A stretch of DNA of 52,607 bases from Actinomycetota bacterium (lineage in GTDB: Bacteria > Actinomycetota > Acidimicrobiia > Acidimicrobiales > MedAcidi-G1), in NCBI GenBank assembly GCA_014381945.1, contig JACNKQ010000020.1:1-52607 (forward strand), in the 5' to 3' direction. Made by a program: the position numbers and the translations under genes. Positions 1,590 to 19,836 of this stretch are shown here, piece after piece. The notes below the pieces were generated by a model that was given only the letters and a program-made list of their open reading frames with translations, did not search any database and was not told the DNA's origin. Position 1 is the first letter of the stretch. Every line of letters starts with the position of its first letter.

Positions 1590-3066
1590 TTCAAGCCGGG
1601 CTGGCAGGTCGGCAGGCAGGTCGGCAGGCACAGCGCCAGAATCGGCAGGATGCTTCATTGATGGAGCCTGGGTGGCAACCGCTGCGACGTTCGATGTGAC
1701 CGACCCGGCCACCGGCGATGTCGTGGGCGCTGCCGCAGATGCCGGACCGGAAGTGGCATCGGCGGCGGTCGCCGCCGCCCACCGTGCCTTCGGCGGGTGG
1801 GCTGACCGCACGGCCCAGGATCGGGCGGAGGTGATCAGGCGCATCTCTGCCGAACTGCTCGCCGCCCTCGACCACATCGCCGACGTCATCGTCTCTGAAC
1901 AGGGCAAGCCCCGCGCCCAGGCCCTGTTCGAGGTCAGGTATGCGACCCAGTGGCTCGACTGGTTCGCAGAGGAGGGTCGTCGCTCCTACGGCGAGGTCAT
2001 ACCCACCCACATCCCCGGCAAGCGCCTCGTCGTCCAGCAGAAGCCCCTCGGCGTTGCGGTCGCCATCACTCCCTGGAATTTCCCGGTGGCCATGATCGCC
2101 CGCAAGCTCGCCCCGGCGATGGCTGCCGGCTGCACGATCGTGGTCAAGCCCGCAGAGCAGACCCCCCTGTCGGCGGTCGCCCTGTTCGAGGCCATTGACC
2201 GTGCCGGGGTGCCGGCGGGCGTCTGCAACCTCGTGACCTCCTCCGACCCCGAACCCCTTGCAGCGCCCCTGCTCGAAGATCCCAGGGTCCGCAAGATCAC
2301 GTTCACGGGCTCAACCGACGTCGGAAAACTCCTGGTGCGGGCATCTGCAACCAACCTTGCCCGCGTGTCGTTGGAGCTCGGCGGACAGGCACCGTTCATC
2401 GTGTTCGACGACGCCGACCTGGATGCAGCGGTCGAAGGCGTGCTGATGTCGAAGTTCCAGGTCAACGGCCAGTCCTGCCTCTGCGCCAACCGGATCTTCG
2501 TCCAGGAGGCGGTCGCCGACGACTTCACGGGCCGTCTGAGCAGGGCGGCGTCGAAGCTCAGGGTCGGCCCCGGCGACGAAGATGGCGTAGACGTCGGCCC
2601 CCTCATCGACGCCGCTGGTTTCGACAAGGTCTCGGCCCATGTCATGGATGCCGTGGATAGGGGAGCCACCGTAGAGACCGGGGGCGGTCGGGTTGGGTCA
2701 CACCCCGGTGGGTACTTCTTCAAACCAACAGTCCTGTCCGGCTGCACCGACGAAATGCTGTGCGCCAGGGAGGAGACCTTCGGACCGGTGGCACCCGTGC
2801 TGACGTTCCGGACCGAAGCAGAGGTGGTGGATCGCGCCAACGACACCCGCTATGGGCTGGCCGCGTACGTCTACACCAGGGACCTCGGTCGGGCGATGAG
2901 GACATCGGAGAAACTGGAGTTCGGAATGGTGGGGGTGAACGACCCCATGCCGGCCTCGCCGACGGCACCGTTCGGCGGCTTCAAGGAGTCGGGTCTAGGC
3001 CGCGAGGGAGGCCATGACGGTCTCGAGGCGTTCCTGGAAAAGAAGCTCGTCTCGTTCGTTAGCTGA
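1582..3066 (+). CDS. NAD(P)-dependent aldehyde dehydrogenase, succinate-semialdehyde-dehydrogenase-like
   Basis: Oxidises an aldehyde to the acid. The general base is E265 in LELGGQAP, and the catalytic cysteine is C299 in NGQSCLCANR, where the second cysteine two residues later is typical of GabD-type enzymes. The C-terminus PFGGFKESGLGREGG also fits that subfamily. Length 494 aa is normal. The first 20 residues are low complexity (Ser/Arg/Ala/Gly) and come from a 12-bp DNA duplication at 1603-1626, so they are probably not functional. It starts 8 nt inside the amidohydrolase, which suggests translational coupling and a shared pathway whose aldehyde product is unknown. Assignment to succinate semialdehyde is by subfamily resemblance only. 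Confidence 0.9.
   Translation: MASSSRAGRSAGRSAGTAPESAGCFIDGAWVATAATFDVTDPATGDVVGAAADAGPEVASAAVAAAHRAFGGWADRTAQDRAEVIRRISAELLAALDHIADVIVSEQGKPRAQALFEVRYATQWLDWFAEEGRRSYGEVIPTHIPGKRLVVQQKPLGVAVAITPWNFPVAMIARKLAPAMAAGCTIVVKPAEQTPLSAVALFEAIDRAGVPAGVCNLVTSSDPEPLAAPLLEDPRVRKITFTGSTDVGKLLVRASATNLARVSLELGGQAPFIVFDDADLDAAVEGVLMSKFQVNGQSCLCANRIFVQEAVADDFTGRLSRAASKLRVGPGDEDGVDVGPLIDAAGFDKVSAHVMDAVDRGATVETGGGRVGSHPGGYFFKPTVLSGCTDEMLCAREETFGPVAPVLTFRTEAEVVDRANDTRYGLAAYVYTRDLGRAMRTSEKLEFGMVGVNDPMPASPTAPFGGFKESGLGREGGHDGLEAFLEKKLVSFVS
1603..1626. repeat. 12-bp tandem duplication in the N-terminal coding region
   Basis: Two adjacent copies of ggcaggtcggca encode an Ala-Gly-Arg-Ser type repeat before the aldehyde dehydrogenase domain begins. 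Confidence 0.85.
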
Positions 3067-3075
3067 GCGGCGCGA

Positions 3076-3732
3076 TCACCCGGGCTCCGGATCCTCCATG
3101 AGGCCCAGGTCCTGGGGCGGCACTCCGGTTATCCGAATGTCCTCGAGTCGTTCGATGTAACGGACGAACCGGTACTTGTCCTCGATGCCGTCGGTGCGCC
3201 GGGGCTCGACCTGCGAGTGCCCGGGTTCGGTGCGAACGTTGATGAAGCTGCACAGGTTGCGTGAGAAGGCCAACCCGATCTCGGTATCCAGTTGTTCCCG
3301 AGTGGATACGTCGGCGGTGTGGGGCACGCCGCAGGAGGCTGCGATCGAGGCCAGGTCGGCCCTGCCGGCCGTGGCTGTCGGGCGCCGTCCGGCGTCTCCC
3401 CAACCGATGGACTCGTACACGCCGTTATCCACCACGAAGACCACGAGGTTGTCGGGAGCGTGCTGCCCCATGGCGACGAACTGCCCCAGCTCCATCAGCA
3501 CAGAACCGTCACCGTCCAGGCAGACCACCTTCCGATGGGGCAGGGCCATCGCAAGGCCCAGTGCCAGGCCGATCACGTCGCCCATCTGACCGAGGTGTCC
3601 GGTCCGTGGATGTTCTTCGGTGTGGTGTGCCCACTCGAAGGAGACCGCACCGATGTAGGTGGACATGACCAGGCAGTCGTCGGGCAACGCGGCCGCAAGG
3701 CATGCCAACCAGTCGTTACGGTCGAGGGCCAT
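3076..3732 (-). CDS. thiamine-diphosphate decarboxylase, beta subunit (sulfopyruvate-decarboxylase ComE-like)
   Basis: This is the thiamine-diphosphate-binding half of a split 2-oxoacid decarboxylase. The cofactor motif begins at GDGSVLMELG and ends at VVDNGVYE, giving the expected GDG...N spacing; LGQMGDVIGLALGLA is typical of the family. The ATG at 3732 shares one base with the TGA of the alpha subunit (TGATG). About 218 aa, slightly longer than archaeal ComE because of a C-terminal extension. Known ComDE proteins decarboxylate sulfopyruvate to sulfoacetaldehyde. Phosphonopyruvate decarboxylase is a related alternative, but that enzyme is normally a single chain. No other sulfolactate or coenzyme M gene is adjacent. 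Confidence 0.82.
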   Translation of the reverse strand: MALDRNDWLACLAAALPDDCLVMSTYIGAVSFEWAHHTEEHPRTGHLGQMGDVIGLALGLAMALPHRKVVCLDGDGSVLMELGQFVAMGQHAPDNLVVFVVDNGVYESIGWGDAGRRPTATAGRADLASIAASCGVPHTADVSTREQLDTEIGLAFSRNLCSFINVRTEPGHSQVEPRRTDGIEDKYRFVRYIERLEDIRITGVPPQDLGLMEDPEPG

Positions 3733-4271
3733 CAACGACCATCCCCGTCGTCCCAGACGCAGTCGCCGGAGATGAGTACGGCGGCGGGGTGCAGCTGGGC
3801 CTCGGAGAGACGCTGGGCCCGCACGATGGCCGTGCGCAGTTCGTCGACCCGTCGGACTATGAGGTACCTGATCCTCAGGGCCTGCAGGAGTGGCTCGGCG
3901 ACGATGCCGTGGGGGATTCCCCAGTGCTCGGTCTCGCCGACATCCCCCCGGTACGAACAGAGCAGGGTGACCGGAACGCCGGTTCCGAGCGAGATGCGTG
4001 CGATGTACTCCGATGCCACGCGCAGGCCGCTATTTTCCATGATGAGGGCCGACTTCATGCCCCCGAGCCACGCTCCGGCACACATCGAAAATCCGACGCC
4101 CTCGTTGCACACCGGGGCGTACCGGAAGTTGTCGTTGTCCTCGACCAGTTCGTGCACGTTGCGCTGCCAACCGTCGGGCAGCCCGGAAACGAAGTTGATC
4201 CCGGCCTCCTCGAGGCCCCGTACAGCCTCCTCGGCGGCATGTTGCAACACGTCCCAGCCCCTCTCGAGCAC
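3732..4271 (-). CDS. thiamine-diphosphate decarboxylase, alpha subunit (sulfopyruvate-decarboxylase ComD-like)
   Basis: This is the pyrimidine-binding half of the split decarboxylase encoded with the beta subunit. The N-terminal region contains GINFVSGLPDGW and later YAPVCNEGVGFSMCAGAWLGG. The glutamate in CNEG is the expected activator of the thiamine ring. The start used is GTG 4271; no in-frame ATG fits better. A good -10 element (TACAAT) lies on this strand at 4295-4300, giving a leader of about 17 nt. The pair forms a divergent unit with adenine deaminase. About 179 aa, normal for ComD. The substrate (sulfo- or phosphonopyruvate) is inferred from the family only. Confidence 0.82.
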   Translation of the reverse strand: MLERGWDVLQHAAEEAVRGLEEAGINFVSGLPDGWQRNVHELVEDNDNFRYAPVCNEGVGFSMCAGAWLGGMKSALIMENSGLRVASEYIARISLGTGVPVTLLCSYRGDVGETEHWGIPHGIVAEPLLQALRIRYLIVRRVDELRTAIVRAQRLSEAQLHPAAVLISGDCVWDDGDGR

Positions 4272-4294
4272 GGCCTGATTGCTTCTGGCTGCGG

Positions 4295-4300
4295 ATTGTA
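4295..4300 (-). promoter_or_regulatory. -10 element (TACAAT) for the decarboxylase pair
   Basis: On the minus strand TACAAT matches the actinobacterial TAnnnT pattern and lies 23 nt upstream of the GTG at 4271. No convincing -35 is visible. Confidence 0.45.
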
Positions 4301-4372
4301 CCCACCGGCCGGGACGCAGGCCGGGTTCGCCAGGTCAGCGGTCTGACATCGGGGACCCCGGAGCCGGAGCAC

Positions 4373-4378
4373 TACCCT
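4373..4378 (+). promoter_or_regulatory. possible -10 element (TACCCT) upstream of adenine deaminase
   Basis: TACCCT is the only TAnnnT-type hexamer I noticed in the 169-bp gap in front of the deaminase. It lies 62 nt before the chosen GTG (4441) and 17 nt before an in-frame GTG at 4396. Confidence 0.3.
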
Positions 4379-4440
4379 CCGGGAATCAGCCACGTGTGCG
4401 ATCTGTCGCCTGCTCCAATGTCGATTCCGGGATCCTCTCC

Positions 4441-6228
4441 GTGATCGATCGTTCGCATCTGGTCGGGGTTGCCATCGGAAGGGAGCCGGCGGACCTGGTC
4501 CTGCGGGGCGGCCGGGTCGTGGGCGTCGATACCCGCGAGACGTTCCCAGCCGACGTCGTCATCGCCGGAGACCGGATCGCAGCCCTGGCGCAGGCCGGGG
4601 ACTACCGGGTTGGGGAGACGACCGAGGTCGTCGACCTGGATGGCCGCCATGTCTGCCCGGGTCTGATCGATCCGCACATCCACATCGAGAGCTCGAACCT
4701 CATGGTCGGGGAGCTCGCACGCGCCATCGTGCCCAGGGGCGTGCTCACGCTCGTCGCCGATCCGCACGAGATCGCCAATGTGCTCGGAATGGCAGGCGTC
4801 GAGTTCCTGCTCGGGCAGGCGGTGGGGCTGCCCCTCGACGTCCTGCTGCGCGTGCCGGGGCGTGTGCCGGCCATGCCTGCGCACCTCGAGACCTCCGGGC
4901 ACGAGGTTGACCTGGCGGCCACGATCGCCCTGCTGGACCGTCCCGATGCCGTCTGCATCGGCGGCGACATCAACCCGGCGCTCCTGCTCGAACTCGACGC
5001 AGGACAGCTGGCCAGGATCGGGGCCGCCATCGACCGGGGCCTGACTGTGGGAGGACAGTTGCCGGGCTTCACCGGTCCGGAACTCGACGCCTCGGTGGCA
5101 TGTGGCCTCGAAGACACCCATGTCGCCGAGTCGGTCGATGAGGTGATCGCACAACTTCGGAGGGGTCTGAGGGTCCTGCTGACGCCGAGGATCGACCGCC
5201 TGCCCGCTTCAGACTGGCCCGAGCTGGCCGCCGAGTTGCATCGGCAGGGGATCGACACGCGTCACCTCGTCCTGTGCACCGATGACGTCCACCCCAACCT
5301 GCTCCGCAGGGAGGGCCACCTCGACCAGCGTGTCCGCCTTGCCATCGAGTCGGGGTTCGACCCGGTCGAGGCGATCCAGATGGCGACGCAGAACAGCGCA
5401 GAGCTCATGCGCATCGGCAGGGACCGGGGCGGCGTGAACCCGGGAAAGTTCGCCGACCTGGTGGTGCTCGACGATCTCCGGTCATTCGATGTCTCGATCG
5501 TCATCCACCACGGCAGGGTGGTCGCCCGCGACCATTCGCTGACCGTCGAGATCGTGGCGTCCAGGGCTCCCGGATGGACCATGGACACGGTCCGTCTTGC
5601 GGACGAGGTTCGGACTGCTGCAAGGCTCGTCGACAGGCTCGCCGTGCACGTTGACGCAGACGGCCCGGTGACTGTCAACGTCGTGGAGTTCGGCGGTCCC
5701 AAGATGATGCGCCGGGTCGAGCTGGTGGCAACCGGCGGGATCGTTCTGCCCGACAGCGATCAGGACATAGCAGGCATCGCCGTTCTGGAACGCCACAAGG
5801 GCACCGCAGCGGTGGGTCTGGGGTTCGTTGCCGGGCTCGGCATCACGGGAGGGGCCGTGGCATGCACCGTGAACCACGATTCCCACAACATCTTCGTCGT
5901 CGGCGACGACCACAGGTCGATGGCAGCGGCCGTCGAGGCGCTGGCCCTGGCAGGTGGCGGCTACTGCGCCGTCGTGGGCACCGAGGTTCGGGCTCTTCTG
6001 GCGCTGCCCATCGCCGGGCTGCTTTCCGAAGAGCCACTCGATGTTGTCGCCGATGGCCTCGAGGCGGTCGAGCGGGTGCTCCTAGACGAACTCGGCTGCA
6101 GCATCACCGACCATCCGCTGTATGCGCTCAACTTCCTCTGCCTCCCGAACATCCCCGACGTGGGCGTTACCGACAAGGGCATCGTCGAGACAGCGGCGAT
6201 GAGGATCGTCCCCACGGTTGTTCCATAG
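4441..6228 (+). CDS. ade: adenine deaminase
   Basis: Converts adenine to hypoxanthine and ammonia in purine salvage or catabolism. Recognisable motifs in order are VAIGREPADLVLRGG near the N-terminus, the metal-binding PHIHIESS (H79, H81), ADPHEIANVLG, LCTDDVHPNLL, and a C-terminal domain with NHDSHNIFVVGDD and ALPIAGLLSEEP. All are diagnostic of the Ade/YicP family rather than generic dihydroorotases. From GTG 4441 the protein is 595 aa, the usual length, with nine residues before the conserved N-terminus. A GTG at 4396 would add 15 residues. There is no clear ribosome-binding site. It sits alone between divergent and convergent neighbours. Confidence 0.93.
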   Translation: MIDRSHLVGVAIGREPADLVLRGGRVVGVDTRETFPADVVIAGDRIAALAQAGDYRVGETTEVVDLDGRHVCPGLIDPHIHIESSNLMVGELARAIVPRGVLTLVADPHEIANVLGMAGVEFLLGQAVGLPLDVLLRVPGRVPAMPAHLETSGHEVDLAATIALLDRPDAVCIGGDINPALLLELDAGQLARIGAAIDRGLTVGGQLPGFTGPELDASVACGLEDTHVAESVDEVIAQLRRGLRVLLTPRIDRLPASDWPELAAELHRQGIDTRHLVLCTDDVHPNLLRREGHLDQRVRLAIESGFDPVEAIQMATQNSAELMRIGRDRGGVNPGKFADLVVLDDLRSFDVSIVIHHGRVVARDHSLTVEIVASRAPGWTMDTVRLADEVRTAARLVDRLAVHVDADGPVTVNVVEFGGPKMMRRVELVATGGIVLPDSDQDIAGIAVLERHKGTAAVGLGFVAGLGITGGAVACTVNHDSHNIFVVGDDHRSMAAAVEALALAGGGYCAVVGTEVRALLALPIAGLLSEEPLDVVADGLEAVERVLLDELGCSITDHPLYALNFLCLPNIPDVGVTDKGIVETAAMRIVPTVVP

Positions 6229-6245
6229 GTCAGCAGGGCGTGTTT

Positions 6246-6281
6246 CCTGGAGGACCTGGAGGACCTGGAGAGCCTGGAGAA
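6246..6281. repeat. 9-bp tandem repeat, 4 copies
   Basis: Four units of the type cctggagga (the last two diverged to cctggagag and cctggagaa) fill most of the 75-bp gap between the convergent adenine deaminase and NrfD genes. No hairpin-plus-T-run terminator is evident here. Confidence 0.9.
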
Positions 6282-6303
6282 TCTGATCAGCCCGTACGGG
6301 TGC

Positions 6304-7311
6304 TCACCGTCGGGTCGACGGGATGTGGACCGGGGGGAAGATTCCGACCCTCAGGGTGGTCAGCCGCAACAGCAGCCCTCCCTGTACCAGCAGGGCGAAC
6401 GAGATCACCGACAGCGCTGTACGGGCCCCGGGAACGGCGGCTCCGATGAACGCCAGCAGGGTCGGCATGAGTGTTCCGAGCACCAGTACCAACCCCACGA
6501 AGACCGCCCGGTGGGGGCCCCGCAGCAGGCTGTCGAGGCTCTGCTGCTTGCCGGGCACGTCGCGGTGGGTCGAAAGGTGGACGGCCATGGCGGTCAGCAG
6601 GCCGGCCGTGAGGATGCCGAGCAGGGCCATCTGGCCACCGCTGATGGGAACGTCGTTGATCGCCTCGAGCAGCAGCACGGTCGCCAGGGACATGGCGGCG
6701 GACGACAGCAGGAACTGGATCGGCACGGCGGGCGAGCTCCAGTAGGGGATGGATCGTGGTCTGGCCAGGACGGCCCCGGCATAGGTCATGACGATGACGG
6801 CAGCCGCACCAGCGAGGATCTCCAGGGCCAGTCCGGTCGCGTCGCTGCCGTCGGGTTCCCAGCCCAGTCCGCTGAAGGGTCGTGAGCCGCCGAGGGACAA
6901 CGCCGGCAGGACGAGCAGGCCGGCAACGGTCAGGAACACGAGGTCGGACCAGGCGCCCCAGCTGATCCAACTCGTGCGTATGTTGGCGAAGGCCCTCCAG
7001 AACTGGAGTGGCCGCCCCAGGTCGGCGACCAGGATCAGGCCACCGATGGCGATCGCCACGAAGCTGACGATGTCGACCATCGGTATGCCGAGCCAGTGGC
7101 CGAGGTCCTCGGTCAGATTGAGGATCCGCCCGGCCAGGAACACTCCTCCGCCCAATCCCATGAGCGTGAACCAGACGGCATGGTTGAGGTCCCACACCCT
7201 CTGGGTGCGCGCCTCGAGGTTGAACTGATCCATGAAGGGGTTCTGGGAATGAGAGGAAAGAGATGAAAGGGGCATCTCCCCGCCGGCGTGCGGCGTGCCC
7301 GTATTGCTCAT
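6304..7311 (-). CDS. NrfD/PsrC-family membrane quinone-interacting subunit
   Basis: Integral membrane anchor of a complex-iron-sulfur-molybdoenzyme; it exchanges electrons with the quinone pool. The 335-residue protein has about eight hydrophobic segments, including the typical first helix after LNHAVWFTLMGLGGG and the conserved DLGRPLQFWRAF in the second loop. CGGAG lies just before the ATG at 7311 as ribosome-binding site. It is the last gene of an operon with the catalytic and ferredoxin subunits. Menaquinone is the likely partner, because menB is present in this window. The direction of electron flow cannot be deduced. Confidence 0.88.
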   Translation of the reverse strand: MSNTGTPHAGGEMPLSSLSSHSQNPFMDQFNLEARTQRVWDLNHAVWFTLMGLGGGVFLAGRILNLTEDLGHWLGIPMVDIVSFVAIAIGGLILVADLGRPLQFWRAFANIRTSWISWGAWSDLVFLTVAGLLVLPALSLGGSRPFSGLGWEPDGSDATGLALEILAGAAAVIVMTYAGAVLARPRSIPYWSSPAVPIQFLLSSAAMSLATVLLLEAINDVPISGGQMALLGILTAGLLTAMAVHLSTHRDVPGKQQSLDSLLRGPHRAVFVGLVLVLGTLMPTLLAFIGAAVPGARTALSVISFALLVQGGLLLRLTTLRVGIFPPVHIPSTRR

Positions 7312-7327
7312 TGCAACTCCGCGTTGA

Positions 7328-7993
7328 TCATTGCAGGTTCACGTATTTGGTCTTCGGGTTGGTTCGGGCGTCGGGCCGCAGGACCTCACCCGGACCATTC
7401 TCCGTCAGGTACCGGCTGACGTTGCTCTCCGGGTCGTCCAGGTCTCCGAAGATCCGACACTCGGCCGGGCAGGTGACCACACACGCCGGTGTTGCGAGGG
7501 GATGGACGCCCACCTCCAGGCCGTGTTCGACCCCGTAGTCGATGCGGTGCGCGCAGTAGGTGCACTTGGAGATCGCACCGTGGACGTGTTGTTCGTGGGC
7601 GTAGCGCTCGGGGACGCTTGCCTGGGGCGTGGCCGAGCCAGCAGGAGCCGAGGCGGTGCCGCTGTCCTCGAAGAAGTTGATCGCACCGTAGGGGCAGGCT
7701 GCCATGCAGGCGCGTGACCCGATGCAGATGTCCTCGTCGGCGATCACGATGCCGTCGTCGCGGCGCGTTATCGCCCCGGACGGGCAGGCGGTCACGCAGG
7801 GGGCGTCCTCACAGTGGTTGCACAGCGTCGGCAGGTAGTTGAGCGTCGCGTCCGGAAAGACACCCGATTCCCATTCGATGACAGGGGCGTACCAGGCGTC
7901 CAGGGGAGACTGGTTCTCGGTCTTGCATGCGACGGTGCAGGCCTGGCATCCGACGCAGCGCCCGATGTCGATCACCATGCCCCAGCGGGTCAC
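7328..7993 (-). CDS. four-cluster [4Fe-4S] electron-transfer subunit (NrfC/PsrB/DmsB-like)
   Basis: Carries electrons between the molybdenum subunit and the NrfD anchor. Start GTG 7993 overlaps the MopB stop codon by 4 nt (GTGA). The 221-aa chain has four cysteine groups: C13/C16/C19/C23, C58/C61/C66/C70, C90/C96/C100, and C144/C147/C171/C175/C179. In the third group the second ligand is replaced: the sequence reads CIGSRACMAACP, with Ser93 (codon TCA, 7717-7715) where the family has Cys. That cluster may be ligated by serine, be a [3Fe-4S] cluster, or be unstable. No Tat or Sec signal is present. Confidence 0.9.
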   Translation of the reverse strand: MTRWGMVIDIGRCVGCQACTVACKTENQSPLDAWYAPVIEWESGVFPDATLNYLPTLCNHCEDAPCVTACPSGAITRRDDGIVIADEDICIGSRACMAACPYGAINFFEDSGTASAPAGSATPQASVPERYAHEQHVHGAISKCTYCAHRIDYGVEHGLEVGVHPLATPACVVTCPAECRIFGDLDDPESNVSRYLTENGPGEVLRPDARTNPKTKYVNLQ

Positions 7994-13022: not shown

Positions 13023-13612
13023 TCGCTGCCTCCCTGTCTGTGGCTCTCCTGCCCGAGGCTCACCTGTCCGAGGCTCTCCTGTCCGTGGCTCTCCTGTCTG
13101 TGGCTCTCCTGTCCGAGGTTCTCCTGTCTGTACCCGGTTCGCCTGTCGCCGGCTGCCTCCCACGCTGCGTCGACCGCAGCGCGGATGTTCACGTATCCCG
13201 TGCAGCGGCACAGGTGCCCGTCGAGGACCTGTTCTCGGGCAGTTGCAGCGGGCACGCCGGCCCGGTGTGCGGCCACCAGCGACATGACGATGCCCGGCGT
13301 GCAGAATCCGCACTGCAGGCCGTGTTGTTCGTGCAGGGCGGTCTGCACGGCGTTCTCGATCCCGTCGCATTCCACGCCCTCGACGGTTTCGACAGTCGTG
13401 CCGTCTGCCTGGACGGCCAGCACCAGGCAGGACCTCTGGGGACGGCCGTCGATGATGACGGTGCAGGCCCCGCAGGCACCCTGCTCGCATCCGACGTGCG
13501 TGCCGGTGAGACCCAACTGGTGCCGGATCAGGTCGGAGAGGAGCATCCGAGGCTCGACCCGCACCTCGGCGTTCTCGCCGTTGACCGTGAGGCGGATGGT
13601 GTGCTCATTCAT
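13019..13612 (-). CDS. [2Fe-2S] small subunit of molybdenum hydroxylase, with repeat tail
   Basis: Electron-transfer subunit with two [2Fe-2S] clusters: the plant-type site C42, C47, C50, C62 (GCEQGACGAC) and the second site C101, C104, C135, C137 (CGFCTPG, CRCTGY). The conserved domain ends near residue 157. Residues 161-193 form a tail of five-residue repeats rich in Gly/Arg-Gln-Glu-Ser, created by a 15-bp tandem DNA repeat. Most homologues stop at about 155-165 aa, so this tail is extra. The gene overlaps both neighbours by 4 nt, which indicates tight coupling within the operon. Confidence 0.93.
   Translation of the reverse strand: MNEHTIRLTVNGENAEVRVEPRMLLSDLIRHQLGLTGTHVGCEQGACGACTVIIDGRPQRSCLVLAVQADGTTVETVEGVECDGIENAVQTALHEQHGLQCGFCTPGIVMSLVAAHRAGVPAATAREQVLDGHLCRCTGYVNIRAAVDAAWEAAGDRRTGYRQENLGQESHRQESHGQESLGQVSLGQESHRQGGSE
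13031..13130. repeat. 15-bp tandem repeat, 6 copies plus a partial one
   Basis: Units of the type tggctctcctgtccg run at 13041, 13056, 13071, 13086, 13101 and 13116, with a partial unit before them. Copies differ at a few positions only. The array lies inside the 3' end of the [2Fe-2S] subunit gene, keeps its frame, and ends nine bases before the overlap with the large-subunit start. Confidence 0.95.
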
Positions 13613-15241: not shown

Positions 15242-16090
15242 TCAGCCAGTTGCTTCGGAATTCAAGCGTTCGGAATTCAACGGATCCATGTCCCAGAGTT
15301 GCGTGTCCGGCGGGTCGCCGTAGAGGAGGTGGGCCGGGCTCTGCTTGTCGATGTTGCCGGTGAGGCCGCGGTACATGTCCAGACCGCACAGGGCCCGCAA
15401 CTCGGGCGTGAAGCCGGCCATGACCTCGGGGGGAATGCCGAGGTGCTGATTTTCCTGTTGGCGGATGAAGCCGGCGCAGTAGTTCATGGCGATCCCGACC
15501 CTGACCTCGGCGCTCGTGGTGTTGGCGCCGCCGCCGTGCCAGGTGCTGCCCTGCCAGACCAGCACCGAGCCCCGGGCCATCTCGGCGCAGGCCGTGTCGA
15601 TGTCCTCGGGATCGGCCATGTAGTCGGGGTTCTGCCAGCGGTGGCTGCCGGGGACGATGCGGGTGGCGCCATTGGCCTCCGTGAAGTCGGTGAGCGCCCA
15701 CATGGAGTTGCACACGGTGGGAACGTGCGGCTTGGCGATCGGATGGATCTGGTCGTCGGAGTGGATGACCTGTTTGGTCTCGCCGGGGGCGATCGAGATC
15801 GAAGCCAAAGAGGAAACAAGGCACTGCGGGCCGAGGACGCCCTCGATCAACTCGAGCACCTGCGGCTGCACGGGGACCTGCTGCCAGACCTCACCGTGGG
15901 CCAGCAGGTTGTAGGTGCGTGTGGTGTGGCTGCCCTCGAAGCGGTTTCCTCCGGGAGAGCGGGCGAGTTCGCCTTCGAGTCGGCGGACATCGGCAAGGAG
16001 CCGATCCACCAGGGCGTCGTCGACCACCCGCTCGAGGATGGTGTAGCCATTCTCCTCGAGTTCGCGGTGGTGTTTCGAGAGGTCCGGCAC
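15242..16090 (-). CDS. PhyH-family Fe(II)/2-oxoglutarate dioxygenase 1
   Basis: Putative hydroxylase of a small substrate. The metal triad is visible as H110 and D112 (IHSDDQ) plus H185 (STWHGGGAN). The 2-oxoglutarate-binding basic residue should lie just downstream. Start GTG 16090 gives 282 aa; no in-frame ATG exists nearby. It ends 14 bp before the HAD gene and runs in the same direction, so it may head the molybdenum-hydroxylase operon. The last residues contain a duplicated Leu-Asn-Ser-Glu, reflecting a 15-bp period DNA repeat at 15254-15280. Confidence 0.87.
   Translation of the reverse strand: MPDLSKHHRELEENGYTILERVVDDALVDRLLADVRRLEGELARSPGGNRFEGSHTTRTYNLLAHGEVWQQVPVQPQVLELIEGVLGPQCLVSSLASISIAPGETKQVIHSDDQIHPIAKPHVPTVCNSMWALTDFTEANGATRIVPGSHRWQNPDYMADPEDIDTACAEMARGSVLVWQGSTWHGGGANTTSAEVRVGIAMNYCAGFIRQQENQHLGIPPEVMAGFTPELRALCGLDMYRGLTGNIDKQSPAHLLYGDPPDTQLWDMDPLNSERLNSEATG
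15254..15280. repeat. 12-bp direct repeat, 15-bp period
   Basis: Two copies of ttcggaattcaa begin at 15254 and 15269 within the 3' end of the PhyH gene, encoding a repeated Leu-Asn-Ser-Glu. Confidence 0.85.
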
Positions 16091-16149
16091 GCGACCAGCC
16101 AAGCACCTGATGCGGCGCCGGCCCACACCGAGCGGCCACCGGAGGGGAC

Positions 16150-16155
16150 TAGGGT
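16150..16155 (+). promoter_or_regulatory. -10 element (TAGGGT) for the PLP enzyme
   Basis: TAGGGT lies 39 nt upstream of the ATG at 16195 in the 104-bp divergent gap. The leader would contain AGGAAG nine bases before the start codon. Confidence 0.4.
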
Positions 16156-16194
16156 CTCGCCCTGTCCCGGAGCAGCGGCAGGAAGAGCGCACAC

Positions 16195-17412
16195 ATGGTC
16201 GGCGGTCCCCGCAGGAAGAAGTCAGCGAAGATGTCGACCGAGGCGATCCACGCGGGCGAGATCCACGACGCCTCGGGTGCGCACATCGCTCCGATATTCC
16301 AGACGTCCACGTTCACCTTCGACGACATGGCTGCGATCGAGGCCCGCTCTGCCGGTGACTCGGATGCCTACATGTATTCCCGGGGCGGCAACCCTTCGCG
16401 GACTGCACTGGCGCAGAAGTTGGCGGCCCTCGAGGGAGGGGGCCTCGTCGATGGAGAGGCCCGTGCCGAGATCTTCGCTTCGGGAATGGCTGCCATCACG
16501 GCTGCCCTCATGGGCATGGCAAGGGCCGGCGACCACATCGTCACCCAGCAGGTGCTCTACGGATCAGCCGACCACCTCATCGCCGACGTCCTGTCCGGGT
16601 TCGGGGTCACCAACACGCGACTTCCCGGCCTTGCGCCCGACGATCTGGAGGCCGAGCTGACCCGGCGACCAGGGACGGCGGTCGTCTACCTCGAGACGCC
16701 GGCGAATCCGACGATGGAGCTGATCGACATAGCCGAGACCTGTGGGATCGCACACGCCTTCGGTGCCCGGGTGGTGGTCGACAACACGTTTGCAACGCCG
16801 GTGCTCCAACGGCCCCTGGAGTTGGGCGCCGACGTGGTGGTCCACAGCACCACCAAGTTCATCAACGGCTTCGGGACGGTGATCGGCGGGGCGGTGGTGA
16901 GCGCCGACGCTGACCTTATGGACGACGAGATCGCCAGGCTGATTCGCTACACCGGCGGGGTTCCCAGCCCCTTTGACTGTTGGCTGACCAACCTGGGGCT
17001 CAAGACCCTGCCGTTGCGGATGGAGCGCCACTGCGACAACGCCATGGTCGTCGCACGGTTCCTCGAGGACCACCCGGGGGTTGTCGACACGTTCTATCCC
17101 GGCCTTGTCGAGCACCCGCAGCACGAGCTTGCCCGCCGCCAGATGGACGGATTCGGCGCCATGATCGCATTCGACCTGGGCGACTACGAGTCGGCTGCCA
17201 GGTTCCTTGATCGTGTCGATCTCTGCGCTCTGGCCGTCAGCCTCGGGAACGTCGACACCCTGATCGAGCATCCGGCCTCGATGACCCATGCCGTGGTGCC
17301 GCCGGAGGAGAAGGCGGCTTCAGGCATCACCGACGGGCTGATCCGCATCTCGGTCGGCCTGGAGGACGTAGACGACATCGTCGCCGACCTCGAACAGGCG
17401 CTTGCCGGCTGA
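16195..17412 (+). CDS. Cys/Met-metabolism PLP enzyme (cystathionine gamma-synthase / methionine gamma-lyase family)
   Basis: Fold-type I pyridoxal-phosphate enzyme of trans-sulfuration. The PLP lysine is K221 in HSTTKFINGFG. Phosphate and ring contacts are Y61/R63 (YMYSRGGNP), the stacking Y122 (VLYGS) and D196 (VVDNTFATP). The cysteine typical of bacterial methionine gamma-lyases after LYG is Ser here, so gamma-lyase activity cannot be assumed; O-acetylhomoserine sulfhydrylase or cystathionine synthase/lyase are alternatives. ATG 16195 has a ribosome-binding site, but ATG 16231 is also possible. The methyltransferase chimera follows after 18 bp, so the two may be co-transcribed. Confidence 0.88.
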   Translation: MVGGPRRKKSAKMSTEAIHAGEIHDASGAHIAPIFQTSTFTFDDMAAIEARSAGDSDAYMYSRGGNPSRTALAQKLAALEGGGLVDGEARAEIFASGMAAITAALMGMARAGDHIVTQQVLYGSADHLIADVLSGFGVTNTRLPGLAPDDLEAELTRRPGTAVVYLETPANPTMELIDIAETCGIAHAFGARVVVDNTFATPVLQRPLELGADVVVHSTTKFINGFGTVIGGAVVSADADLMDDEIARLIRYTGGVPSPFDCWLTNLGLKTLPLRMERHCDNAMVVARFLEDHPGVVDTFYPGLVEHPQHELARRQMDGFGAMIAFDLGDYESAARFLDRVDLCALAVSLGNVDTLIEHPASMTHAVVPPEEKAASGITDGLIRISVGLEDVDDIVADLEQALAG

Positions 17413-17430
17413 GCGGATGGTTCGAATCCG

Positions 17431-18765
17431 ATGGTGAGACGGGGGCGTGTCCGGCCCTGCGGGAATGCGCCGGCGGTTCGGCAGCTGCCATGGAGGCAGG
17501 TCGAGAACCCCCACGGGACCCTTCCGGTACTCGACGTCGAGGGGGTCGAGACTATCCACCAGGCGTCGCTGCGGGTCCTGGAGGAACTCGGCATCGAGGT
17601 CTGGAGCGAGACCGCCCGGAATCTTTTCGCCGACGCCGGGGCGATCGTCGAGGGTGAGGTGGTCCGGGTCGGCAGAGAGGTAATCGAGGCAGCACTCGCA
17701 ACTGCTCCGGGTACCTTCACCATGACCTCGCGGAACCCCGCAAAGGCGCTCGACATCGGTGGCAACCGGATCGCCTTCGGCCTCGTGGCCGGGCCGCCTT
17801 CTGTGCACGACGAGGTGCGGGGTCGCCGTTCGTCGAACATGGACGACTACGAAAACCTCGTCCGCCTTGCCCACTACTTCAATGCGATCCACATCCTCGG
17901 CAACCAGGTCGCAGCACCGTTGGAGCTTCCGACCAACAACCGGCACCTCGACACCTACAACGCCAACCTGTCGCTGTCGGACCTCGCCTTCCACTGCACC
18001 GCCATCGGTCGTGGCCGCGCCCTCGACGGCATCAACATGGCGGCGATCGCCCGCGACATCTCCCTCGACGACCTTGAACAGTTGGCGGCATCACCGGGTG
18101 TAACGACGATTGTCAACGTCAACTCGCCACGGCGCTTCGACGAGGAGATGGTCAACGGGCTCATGACGATGAGCGAGCACGGCCAGCCGGTGTCGGTCAC
18201 CCCTTTCACGCTGATGGGGGCGATGAGCCCGACGACGCTGGGGGCGGGTCTCACGCAGCAGAACGCCGAGGCCCTGTTCGGGGTCACCCTCACGCAGCTG
18301 ACCCGGACGGGGGCACCGGTGCTGTACGGGGCGTTCACCTCCAACGTCGACATGCGCTCGGGCGCACCGGCGTTCGGCACCCCCGAGCACGCCAAGGCGA
18401 ACGTCGCATCGGGGCAGCTGGCCCGCCTGGCACGCCAGATCCCCTACACGGCGGCGATGCGGCTGATCCTGGGAGGCGAGCCGATCACGGCAGGGGATGC
18501 CCTGCACTGCGGTCTCGTCACCGAAACGGTCGCTGCAGGCGAGGTACGCGGCCGTGCACGCGAGGTCGCCCGATCCGTCGCACTCGGAGCGCCCATCGCC
18601 CTGGCCAAGGCGAAGGAGGCAGTGATCCGATCCAACGGCCTGCCGCTGGAGGAGGCGTACAGGATCGAGAACGAATGCTCCCGGGCGGTGATGGCCACCG
18701 AGGACGCCCGCGAGGGACCCAGGGCCTTCATGGAGAAGCGCCCACCCGAGTTCAAAGGGCGTTGA
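17431..18765 (+). CDS. chimeric protein: MttB-like methyltransferase N-terminus fused to enoyl-CoA hydratase C-terminus
   Basis: Residues about 30-332 match the trimethylamine/glycine-betaine methyltransferase (MttB) family without pyrrolysine: ASLRVLEELGIEVWSE, NMDDYENLVRLA, VNSPRRFDEEM, GAPVLYGAFTSNVDMRSGAP. Residues about 333-444 are instead the C-terminal half of a crotonase: RLARQIPYTAAMRLIL, GEPITAGDALHCGLV, ATEDAREGPRAFMEKRPP. The junction is at GQLARLARQIPY (about 18415-18445). The MttB C-terminal part of the barrel and the crotonase N-terminal oxyanion-hole part are both absent, so neither enzyme looks complete. An in-frame deletion joining two neighbouring genes, or an assembly chimera, explains this best. 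A functional fusion is less likely. ATG 17431 is the first start; translation could begin later. Confidence 0.85.
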   Translation: MVRRGRVRPCGNAPAVRQLPWRQVENPHGTLPVLDVEGVETIHQASLRVLEELGIEVWSETARNLFADAGAIVEGEVVRVGREVIEAALATAPGTFTMTSRNPAKALDIGGNRIAFGLVAGPPSVHDEVRGRRSSNMDDYENLVRLAHYFNAIHILGNQVAAPLELPTNNRHLDTYNANLSLSDLAFHCTAIGRGRALDGINMAAIARDISLDDLEQLAASPGVTTIVNVNSPRRFDEEMVNGLMTMSEHGQPVSVTPFTLMGAMSPTTLGAGLTQQNAEALFGVTLTQLTRTGAPVLYGAFTSNVDMRSGAPAFGTPEHAKANVASGQLARLARQIPYTAAMRLILGGEPITAGDALHCGLVTETVAAGEVRGRAREVARSVALGAPIALAKAKEAVIRSNGLPLEEAYRIENECSRAVMATEDAREGPRAFMEKRPPEFKGR

Positions 18766-18820: not shown

Positions 18821-18883
18821 GTTCTGCCTGATCTGCCTGTTCTGCCTGTTCTGCCTGTTCTGCCTGATCTGCCTGATCTTCCT
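18821..18883. repeat. 9-bp tandem repeat, 7 copies
   Basis: Units gttctgcct and gatctgcct alternate in runs, with the last copy reading gatcttcct. It occupies the gap between the chimera and the PhyH operon. In the GTG-18797 frame it would encode Val-Leu-Pro / Asp-Leu-Pro repeats. Confidence 0.95.
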
Positions 18884-18969
18884 GCGACACAGGCGCCCGG
18901 CCACGGATGCCCGGTCGGCGGGCCACCCGGTCAGAGGGCAGCCCAGCCACCTGGGAGGGAGGTTCACCC

Positions 18970-19836
18970 ATGGACGTGCTGACCGAGGCGCAGGTCGGGC
19001 AGTTCGAGCGGGAGGGCTGGCTGTTCCTCGCGGATGCCCTGCCTGCCGCCACCCTCGACGACCTGAACGCGCAGTTTGAAGCCTGGGTGGAGGAGAGCCG
19101 CAGCCATGGCGAGCCCTACGGCCTGACCTTCGACGGACGGCCCCGCTTCGACCTGGAGCCCGGCCACAACCCGGCGCAGCCTGCGCTCCGGCGGATCGCA
19201 TCACCGACGGAACTGTCAGATGCCTATCTGGCCGTGATGCGGTCCGGCCTCGCCGTCGATGCCACGGCAGAGCTCATCGGTCCGAACATCGAGTTCAACC
19301 ACTCAAAGGTCAATGCAAAGCAACCCGGGGCTGCAACTGCGGTGAAGTTCCACCAGGACCTGCTGTTCGAACTCCACACGAACGACTCGATGATCACCGT
19401 CCTCTACTTCCTCGACGACGTCACGCTCGAGAACGGGCCGCTGGAGGTGGTGCCCGGAAGCCACCGGGGCCCGTTGTACGAGCACTGGCAGAACGGAGTG
19501 TTCACGGGAACCGTCGGTGACGAGGTGGTGGAGATGGCGCGCTCCGAGGCGATCCCGTGCGTCGGACCGGCCGGGTCCGCCTGCCTCATGCACGGGCGCC
19601 TCCTCCACGGCTCAGGGCCCAACCTGTCGAACCGGCCACGGACCCTGTTCATCTCCACCTACCGTTCAGAGGACTGCCACCCGCTCGAGCCCAACCACGT
19701 TCCGAGCGAACACGAAGGCGATCTGGTCCGGGGCGCCCGCACCAACCGGGTCAGGTGCACCGCGATGGAGATGGCGTTCTCCGAGATTCCTACCGGTGCG
19801 TCATTTTTCGACCAGCAGGCCAAGGCGGAGATGTGA
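18970..19836 (+). CDS. PhyH-family Fe(II)/2-oxoglutarate dioxygenase 2
   Basis: Predicted hydroxylase or demethylase of a small molecule, 288 aa. The iron ligands are H128 and D130 (VKFHQDLLF) and H213 in LLHGSGPN, and the downstream arginines in SNRPRTLF supply the 2-oxoglutarate contact. The ATG at 18970 is preceded by a strong GGAGG ribosome-binding site, which decides the start over an in-frame GTG/ATG further up. Its stop overlaps the next gene's GTG by 4 nt, so it is coupled to the maleate-isomerase-like gene and the M24 peptidase. Substrate unknown. Confidence 0.9.
   Translation: MDVLTEAQVGQFEREGWLFLADALPAATLDDLNAQFEAWVEESRSHGEPYGLTFDGRPRFDLEPGHNPAQPALRRIASPTELSDAYLAVMRSGLAVDATAELIGPNIEFNHSKVNAKQPGAATAVKFHQDLLFELHTNDSMITVLYFLDDVTLENGPLEVVPGSHRGPLYEHWQNGVFTGTVGDEVVEMARSEAIPCVGPAGSACLMHGRLLHGSGPNLSNRPRTLFISTYRSEDCHPLEPNHVPSEHEGDLVRGARTNRVRCTAMEMAFSEIPTGASFFDQQAKAEM

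Follow-up and report, generated by a model that had tools for sequence, protein, structure and literature searches.

An in-frame hybrid of an MttB-type methyltransferase front and an enoyl-CoA hydratase C-terminal half in a MedAcidi-G1 genome, probably a recent and inactive fusion

The MttB superfamily (COG5598, PF06253) includes non-pyrrolysine members, among them MtgB (PDB 2QNE, 9YCE) and an S. meliloti protein (4YYC), and also M. barkeri MttB, in which the barrel spans residues 82–395, the active site contains Pyl334 and Tyr364, the corrinoid is bound by Gly372, and a dimerisation loop occupies residues 396–452 (PMC9842639). In docking of the betaine enzyme MtgB, the substrate was surrounded by Y94, N199, R309, H345, and residue 353 (PMC6855144). 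Bacterial fusion pseudogenes, which result from deletions between co-directional genes, consist of a 5' part of one gene and a 3' part of another, both truncated, and occur in a single lineage. In the enoyl-CoA hydratase (ECH)/crotonase family (PF00378), the N-terminal half bears the oxyanion hole and both catalytic Glu residues (Glu144 and Glu164 in the rat enzyme). The hybrid gene described here resembles the fusion pseudogenes in its composition from two truncated parts, but it shows no stops or decay yet, and its parental neighbours were not found.

The window analysed is a complete contig (C58; 52,607 bases) of a 2.49-Mb draft genome that comprises 78 contigs and is 97.5% complete and 0.5% contaminated. 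A stop-free reading frame on its forward strand (17431–18765, with the stop codon at 18763–18765) encodes 444 aa, in which the N-terminal two thirds of an MttB-type methyltransferase are followed in the same frame by the C-terminal half of an enoyl-CoA hydratase (Table 1). The preliminary description had proposed such an in-frame chimera with both families truncated, and its reading frame, coordinates, and motifs were as described. The Pfam search that it had suggested matched both domains, each partially: MTTB (PF06253) scored 376 bits against a cutoff of 25 (E = 2.3e-112) over residues 13–341 and profile positions 14–335 of 500, and ECH_1 (PF00378) scored 67 bits against a cutoff of 27 (E = 1.7e-18) over profile positions 119–250 of 251. 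NCBIfam agreed with Pfam on both halves; its scores of 170 bits for TIGR02369 (cutoff 525) and 114 bits for EchA19 (cutoff 400) are far under what full-length members of the two families require. Judged by these profiles, the family similarity of both halves is far beyond chance, and the profile ends, together with the alignments of relatives, bore out the truncation of both families. The MttB N-terminus and the natural ECH C-terminus (EDAREGPRAF-EKR) are both intact, so the joint runs exactly from the front of one gene to the back of the other; both parents are truncated at the joint in the order and on the strand expected of a deletion-made fusion pseudogene.

Table 1. Features of the chimeric gene and its flanks (window coordinates).
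Feature	Coordinates	Strand	Description
Left flank	16195..17412	+	Cys/Met-metabolism PLP enzyme (cystathionine gamma-synthase family); kept in congener G004
Front part, residues 1–332	17431..18426	+	non-pyrrolysine MttB (COG5598/PF06253): N-terminus with the greater part of the TIM barrel
Junction codon R332 (CGC)	18424..18426	+	sole codon fitting both parents
Back part, residues 333–444	18427..18762	+	enoyl-CoA hydratase/crotonase C-terminal half, to the natural C-terminus of the family
Tandem repeat of TCTGCCTGA, 9/18 bp	18821..18884		between the chimera and the PhyH gene
Right flank	18970..19836	+	PhyH-family dioxygenase; kept in four congeners

Comparison with the described structures and with relatives revealed what each half has lost. 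The MttB part keeps the N-terminal domain with the greater part of the barrel and stops at the equivalent of about residue 325 of M. barkeri MttB (7XCL) and residue 322 of 2QNE; everything beyond those positions is therefore gone, that is, the last ~173 residues of the family with the barrel end, the active-site and corrinoid-contact residues, the dimerisation loop, and the tail. The chimera thus contains no complete TIM barrel with its active-site/corrinoid-contact region and dimerisation tail, and the conserved tail of the relatives is absent. In the ECH relatives, the ...EV-RLGLIPAGGSLV segment precedes the point at which similarity begins, and all catalytic residues lie upstream of this point; the relatives' segment up to GGSLV is missing, and neither the oxyanion hole nor the two catalytic Glu residues were found in the chimera. 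Because both halves miss their active-site regions, we infer that the protein should perform neither the MttB nor the ECH reaction. A search for the missing MttB tail and ECH front elsewhere in the 97.5% complete genome yielded distant paralogs only, the best at 51% and 48%, respectively.

The junction was located by alignment with relatives of each family. The MttB similarity ends at A331/R332 after GQLA (residues 328–331), where relatives continue with R-(R/H/C)Y-x-LPYR (e.g., R-YGLPYR), and the ECH similarity starts at R332/L333 (LARQIPYTAAM), which relatives precede with G-S/T-LV-R; in mixed MttB/ECH alignments, MAFFT put the ECH rows in the wrong place. The R332 codon can accordingly be read as GQLA-R-RYGLPYR in the MttB parent and as LV-R-LARQIPYTAAM in the ECH parent. 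Recombination through a shared LAR stretch, as suggested in the preliminary description, did not hold up: an LAR/LAR crossover was rejected, as it would leave a single copy (GQ-LAR-QIPY), whereas the chimera retains both (GQ-LAR-LAR-QIPY), and the sequence common to the parents amounts to about 3 nt, the R332 codon. As chance gives a match of this length, the case for microhomology as the mechanism of joining is weak, although such a mechanism is possible.

Comparative analysis of the flanks with genomes of the same genus showed synteny on both sides. The PLP gene to the left shared 83% nucleotide identity with its counterpart in G004, in an alignment that runs to its last base (17412). The PhyH gene to the right shared 77–82% identity with G004, G001, G002, and G005 from its start or nearby, the alignment beginning at 18973/18985 in G004, G001, and G005 and at 19083 in G002; its frame is open from 18907, and its tabulated start is the one shared by alignment. 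For the PLP gene, the order on the left is seen in a single congener, G004, where an N run lies to its right; for the PhyH gene at 15242–16192 it is seen in G001. A contig from another genome was rejected as an explanation on the basis of this two-sided synteny. The content between the flanks differed among congeners: in G001 both of these PhyH flanks are found on a single contig, with an MFS transporter gene between them, the interval in G002 holds an unnamed ORF, and that in G004 (L188, G004:C71, bases 2864–7512 of the reverse complement) holds a ferrochelatase gene, a HemN-like radical SAM gene, an ORF of 432 aa that matched no Pfam family, and an N run of 342 bases. The site thus seems to turn over within the genus, and, as judged from this synteny, the contig is native to its genome and the chimera occupies a variable interval in it.

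Several short sequences in the window were recorded alongside. In the gap of 18 nt between the upstream gene and the chimera, GGTTCGAATCC at 17419–17429 resembles a tRNA T-arm core. No tRNA gene was detected in the window, and no exact second GGTTCGAATCC was found in the genome, in which the sole other near copy, on contig C38, has two mismatches; a tRNA-linked insertion was rejected for the lack of a tRNA and of an exact second copy. None of the congener loci read contained the TCTGCCTGA repeat. Positions 1–79, at the extreme end of the contig, consist of GTGGAGGAA repeated 8.8 times in tandem, a likely assembly break, and a 15/30/45-bp tandem repeat occurs near 13.1 kb (13033–13131).

We considered that the joint might be an assembly artefact, in which the metagenome assembler ran together two genes that lie apart, or left out what lies between them, while the genes on the chromosome are intact. 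The draft has 78 contigs, of which the window is one in full, ending in a tandem repeat, and a congener assembly (G004) has its N run in the same interval, both of which would fit such an error. An artefact is nevertheless unlikely, given that no exact repeat of more than 11 bp touches the joint within the contig, a length below that of assembly k-mers, that the joint is precisely in frame, that neither missing half turned up elsewhere in the bin, and that the composition is the same on both sides, with native flanks around the chimera. A collapse between paralogs of the same genome was rejected, as these are only 28–44% (MttB) and about 40% (ECH) identical to the chimera halves.

Similarity searches with each half placed its closest relatives outside the genus. 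The closest relatives of the MttB half are full-length MttB proteins of ~505 aa from other Acidimicrobiales families and rhizobia; identity was 75–82% to most of the intact proteins of other Acidimicrobiales families, 67–71% to a few, and ~60–67% to rhizobial and rhodobacterial proteins, whereas MttB paralogs in congeners and the rest of the family showed 44% or less. In the MttB tree, the window sequence fell inside an Acidimicrobiales clade (22 rows, support 100/98) on an end branch of 0.21, with its placement within the clade unsettled. The non-pyrrolysine MttB clade of 17431–18426 is common to Acidimicrobiales, rhizobia, and Rhodobacter-like bacteria, at ~60–82% identity to the window half. 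The ECH half was 60–64% identical to ordinary ECH proteins of four other Acidimicrobiales (G202, G221, G196, and G087), and no matching mttB was found beside any of these closest relatives. No intact parent gene, mttB or ech, was found in the genus, and both parents seem to belong to lineages outside the genus or to have been lost by the rest of it.

Searches for a second fusion covered successively wider ranks. In a search of genome contigs (one genome per species, in which records very near the own genome may be left out), the best 80 of 510 MttB relatives covered residues 1–342 at most and included no full fusion. Searches of whole genomes at the ranks of genus, family, and order gave no match that continued past the joint into the ECH half as one fused protein, a probe of 100 aa centred on the junction region (residues 291–390) matched only the own genome among 395 genomes of the class, and the exact junction pattern did not occur in viral contigs. 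Homologues with the same full-length fusion, by which the preliminary description would have recognised a conserved architecture, were found neither among the 395 genomes of the class nor among the other relatives searched, so the searches from genus to class found this joint in no second lineage. This uniqueness among the genomes searched would also be expected of an assembly artefact. The expectation that relatives carry separate mttB and ech genes side by side was not borne out in any neighbourhood read: ECH neighbourhoods (L159–L163 and L167) contained no mttB, and mttB neighbourhoods (L049–L064 and L164–L166) contained no matching ech. The order mttB, PrpD, ech was found at L049, with an ECH only 31% identical to the back half of the chimera. 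Thus, no relative had the parents adjacent and co-directional among the mttB and ech loci read; the true parents may sit in unsampled genomes.

Neither half showed signs of decay. The MttB half had two conservative changes (L to M and I to V) at 117 sites invariant in 45 relatives, and the ECH half had none at 20 invariant sites; intact relatives had 0–4 changes at otherwise invariant sites, comparable to the chimera. The dN/dS values against relatives were 0.07–0.16 for the MttB half and mostly 0.34–0.41 for the ECH half, with one outlier of 0.79 where dS was low; these values are in or near the range among intact relatives and are rough, with synonymous sites near saturation. Both halves agree with the other genes on the contig in GC content and codon usage. 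Given the absence of decay at conserved sites and the host codon usage, the fusion, if real, would be young. It is either recent, or kept by selection, or an artefact; a lack of decay would be expected of an artefact made from pieces of two living genes. A decayed remnant was rejected on account of the kept conserved sites and the dN/dS values. Among the three options raised earlier, namely a gene-fusing deletion, a remnant, and an assembly collapse, we favour a real and recent rearrangement, and an old remnant is unlikely.

The AlphaFold model of the chimera was good in the MttB part, with most blocks at 80–97 and low confidence around residues 262–267 and 305–313, and the best PDB match of this part was 9YCE (E = 5e-26, rmsd 2.0 Å over 306 columns). 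The ECH part, which was built without an alignment of relatives, had a pLDDT of about 40 and is not informative; a full-length control model gave a pLDDT of 33. One predicted helix (318–347) spans the joint. This helix, the intact frame, the conserved sites kept in both halves, and the 18-nt spacing to the upstream gene, which would allow co-transcription, would agree with a functional new protein that is expressed and under selection; its role could be that of a binding or scaffold protein, for instance, or of a regulator acting on MttB or ECH oligomers. Such a function appears very improbable, as both active sites are lost, the barrel is cut before its end, the back half is poorly modelled, and, with a second occurrence in no lineage, selection after fusion cannot be demonstrated. 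About as improbable is a translated and selected protein that consists of a partial TIM barrel and the helical crotonase C-terminal part and serves, for instance, one of the parent families as a non-catalytic partner.

Taking these comparisons together, the locus is probably the product of a recent, lineage-specific rearrangement that gave a dead hybrid, and we infer that the joint is real. In the simplest form, a deletion would have brought together, in frame, the 5' two thirds of an mttB-like gene and the 3' half of an ech gene, within a genomic interval whose content appears to turn over in the genus. The hybrid may have formed in its own lineage or may have come in by transfer already fused, and its product, presumably without either activity, would make it a fusion pseudogene in which decay has yet to start. 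Two points count against this reading: a decay-free frame of 444 codons would also be expected of a selected protein or a two-gene artefact, and no intact parents were found in the genus, nor any side by side in neighbouring genomes.

In other respects the locus would represent ordinary genome turnover, an ordinary accident unless it is an assembly error. If the fusion is real, it is a trap in naming: annotation pipelines would assign the chimera to the methyltransferases or to the enoyl-CoA hydratases, and it should act as neither. It would then also show two unrelated folds freshly fused in frame in a wild bacterium, ahead of decay.
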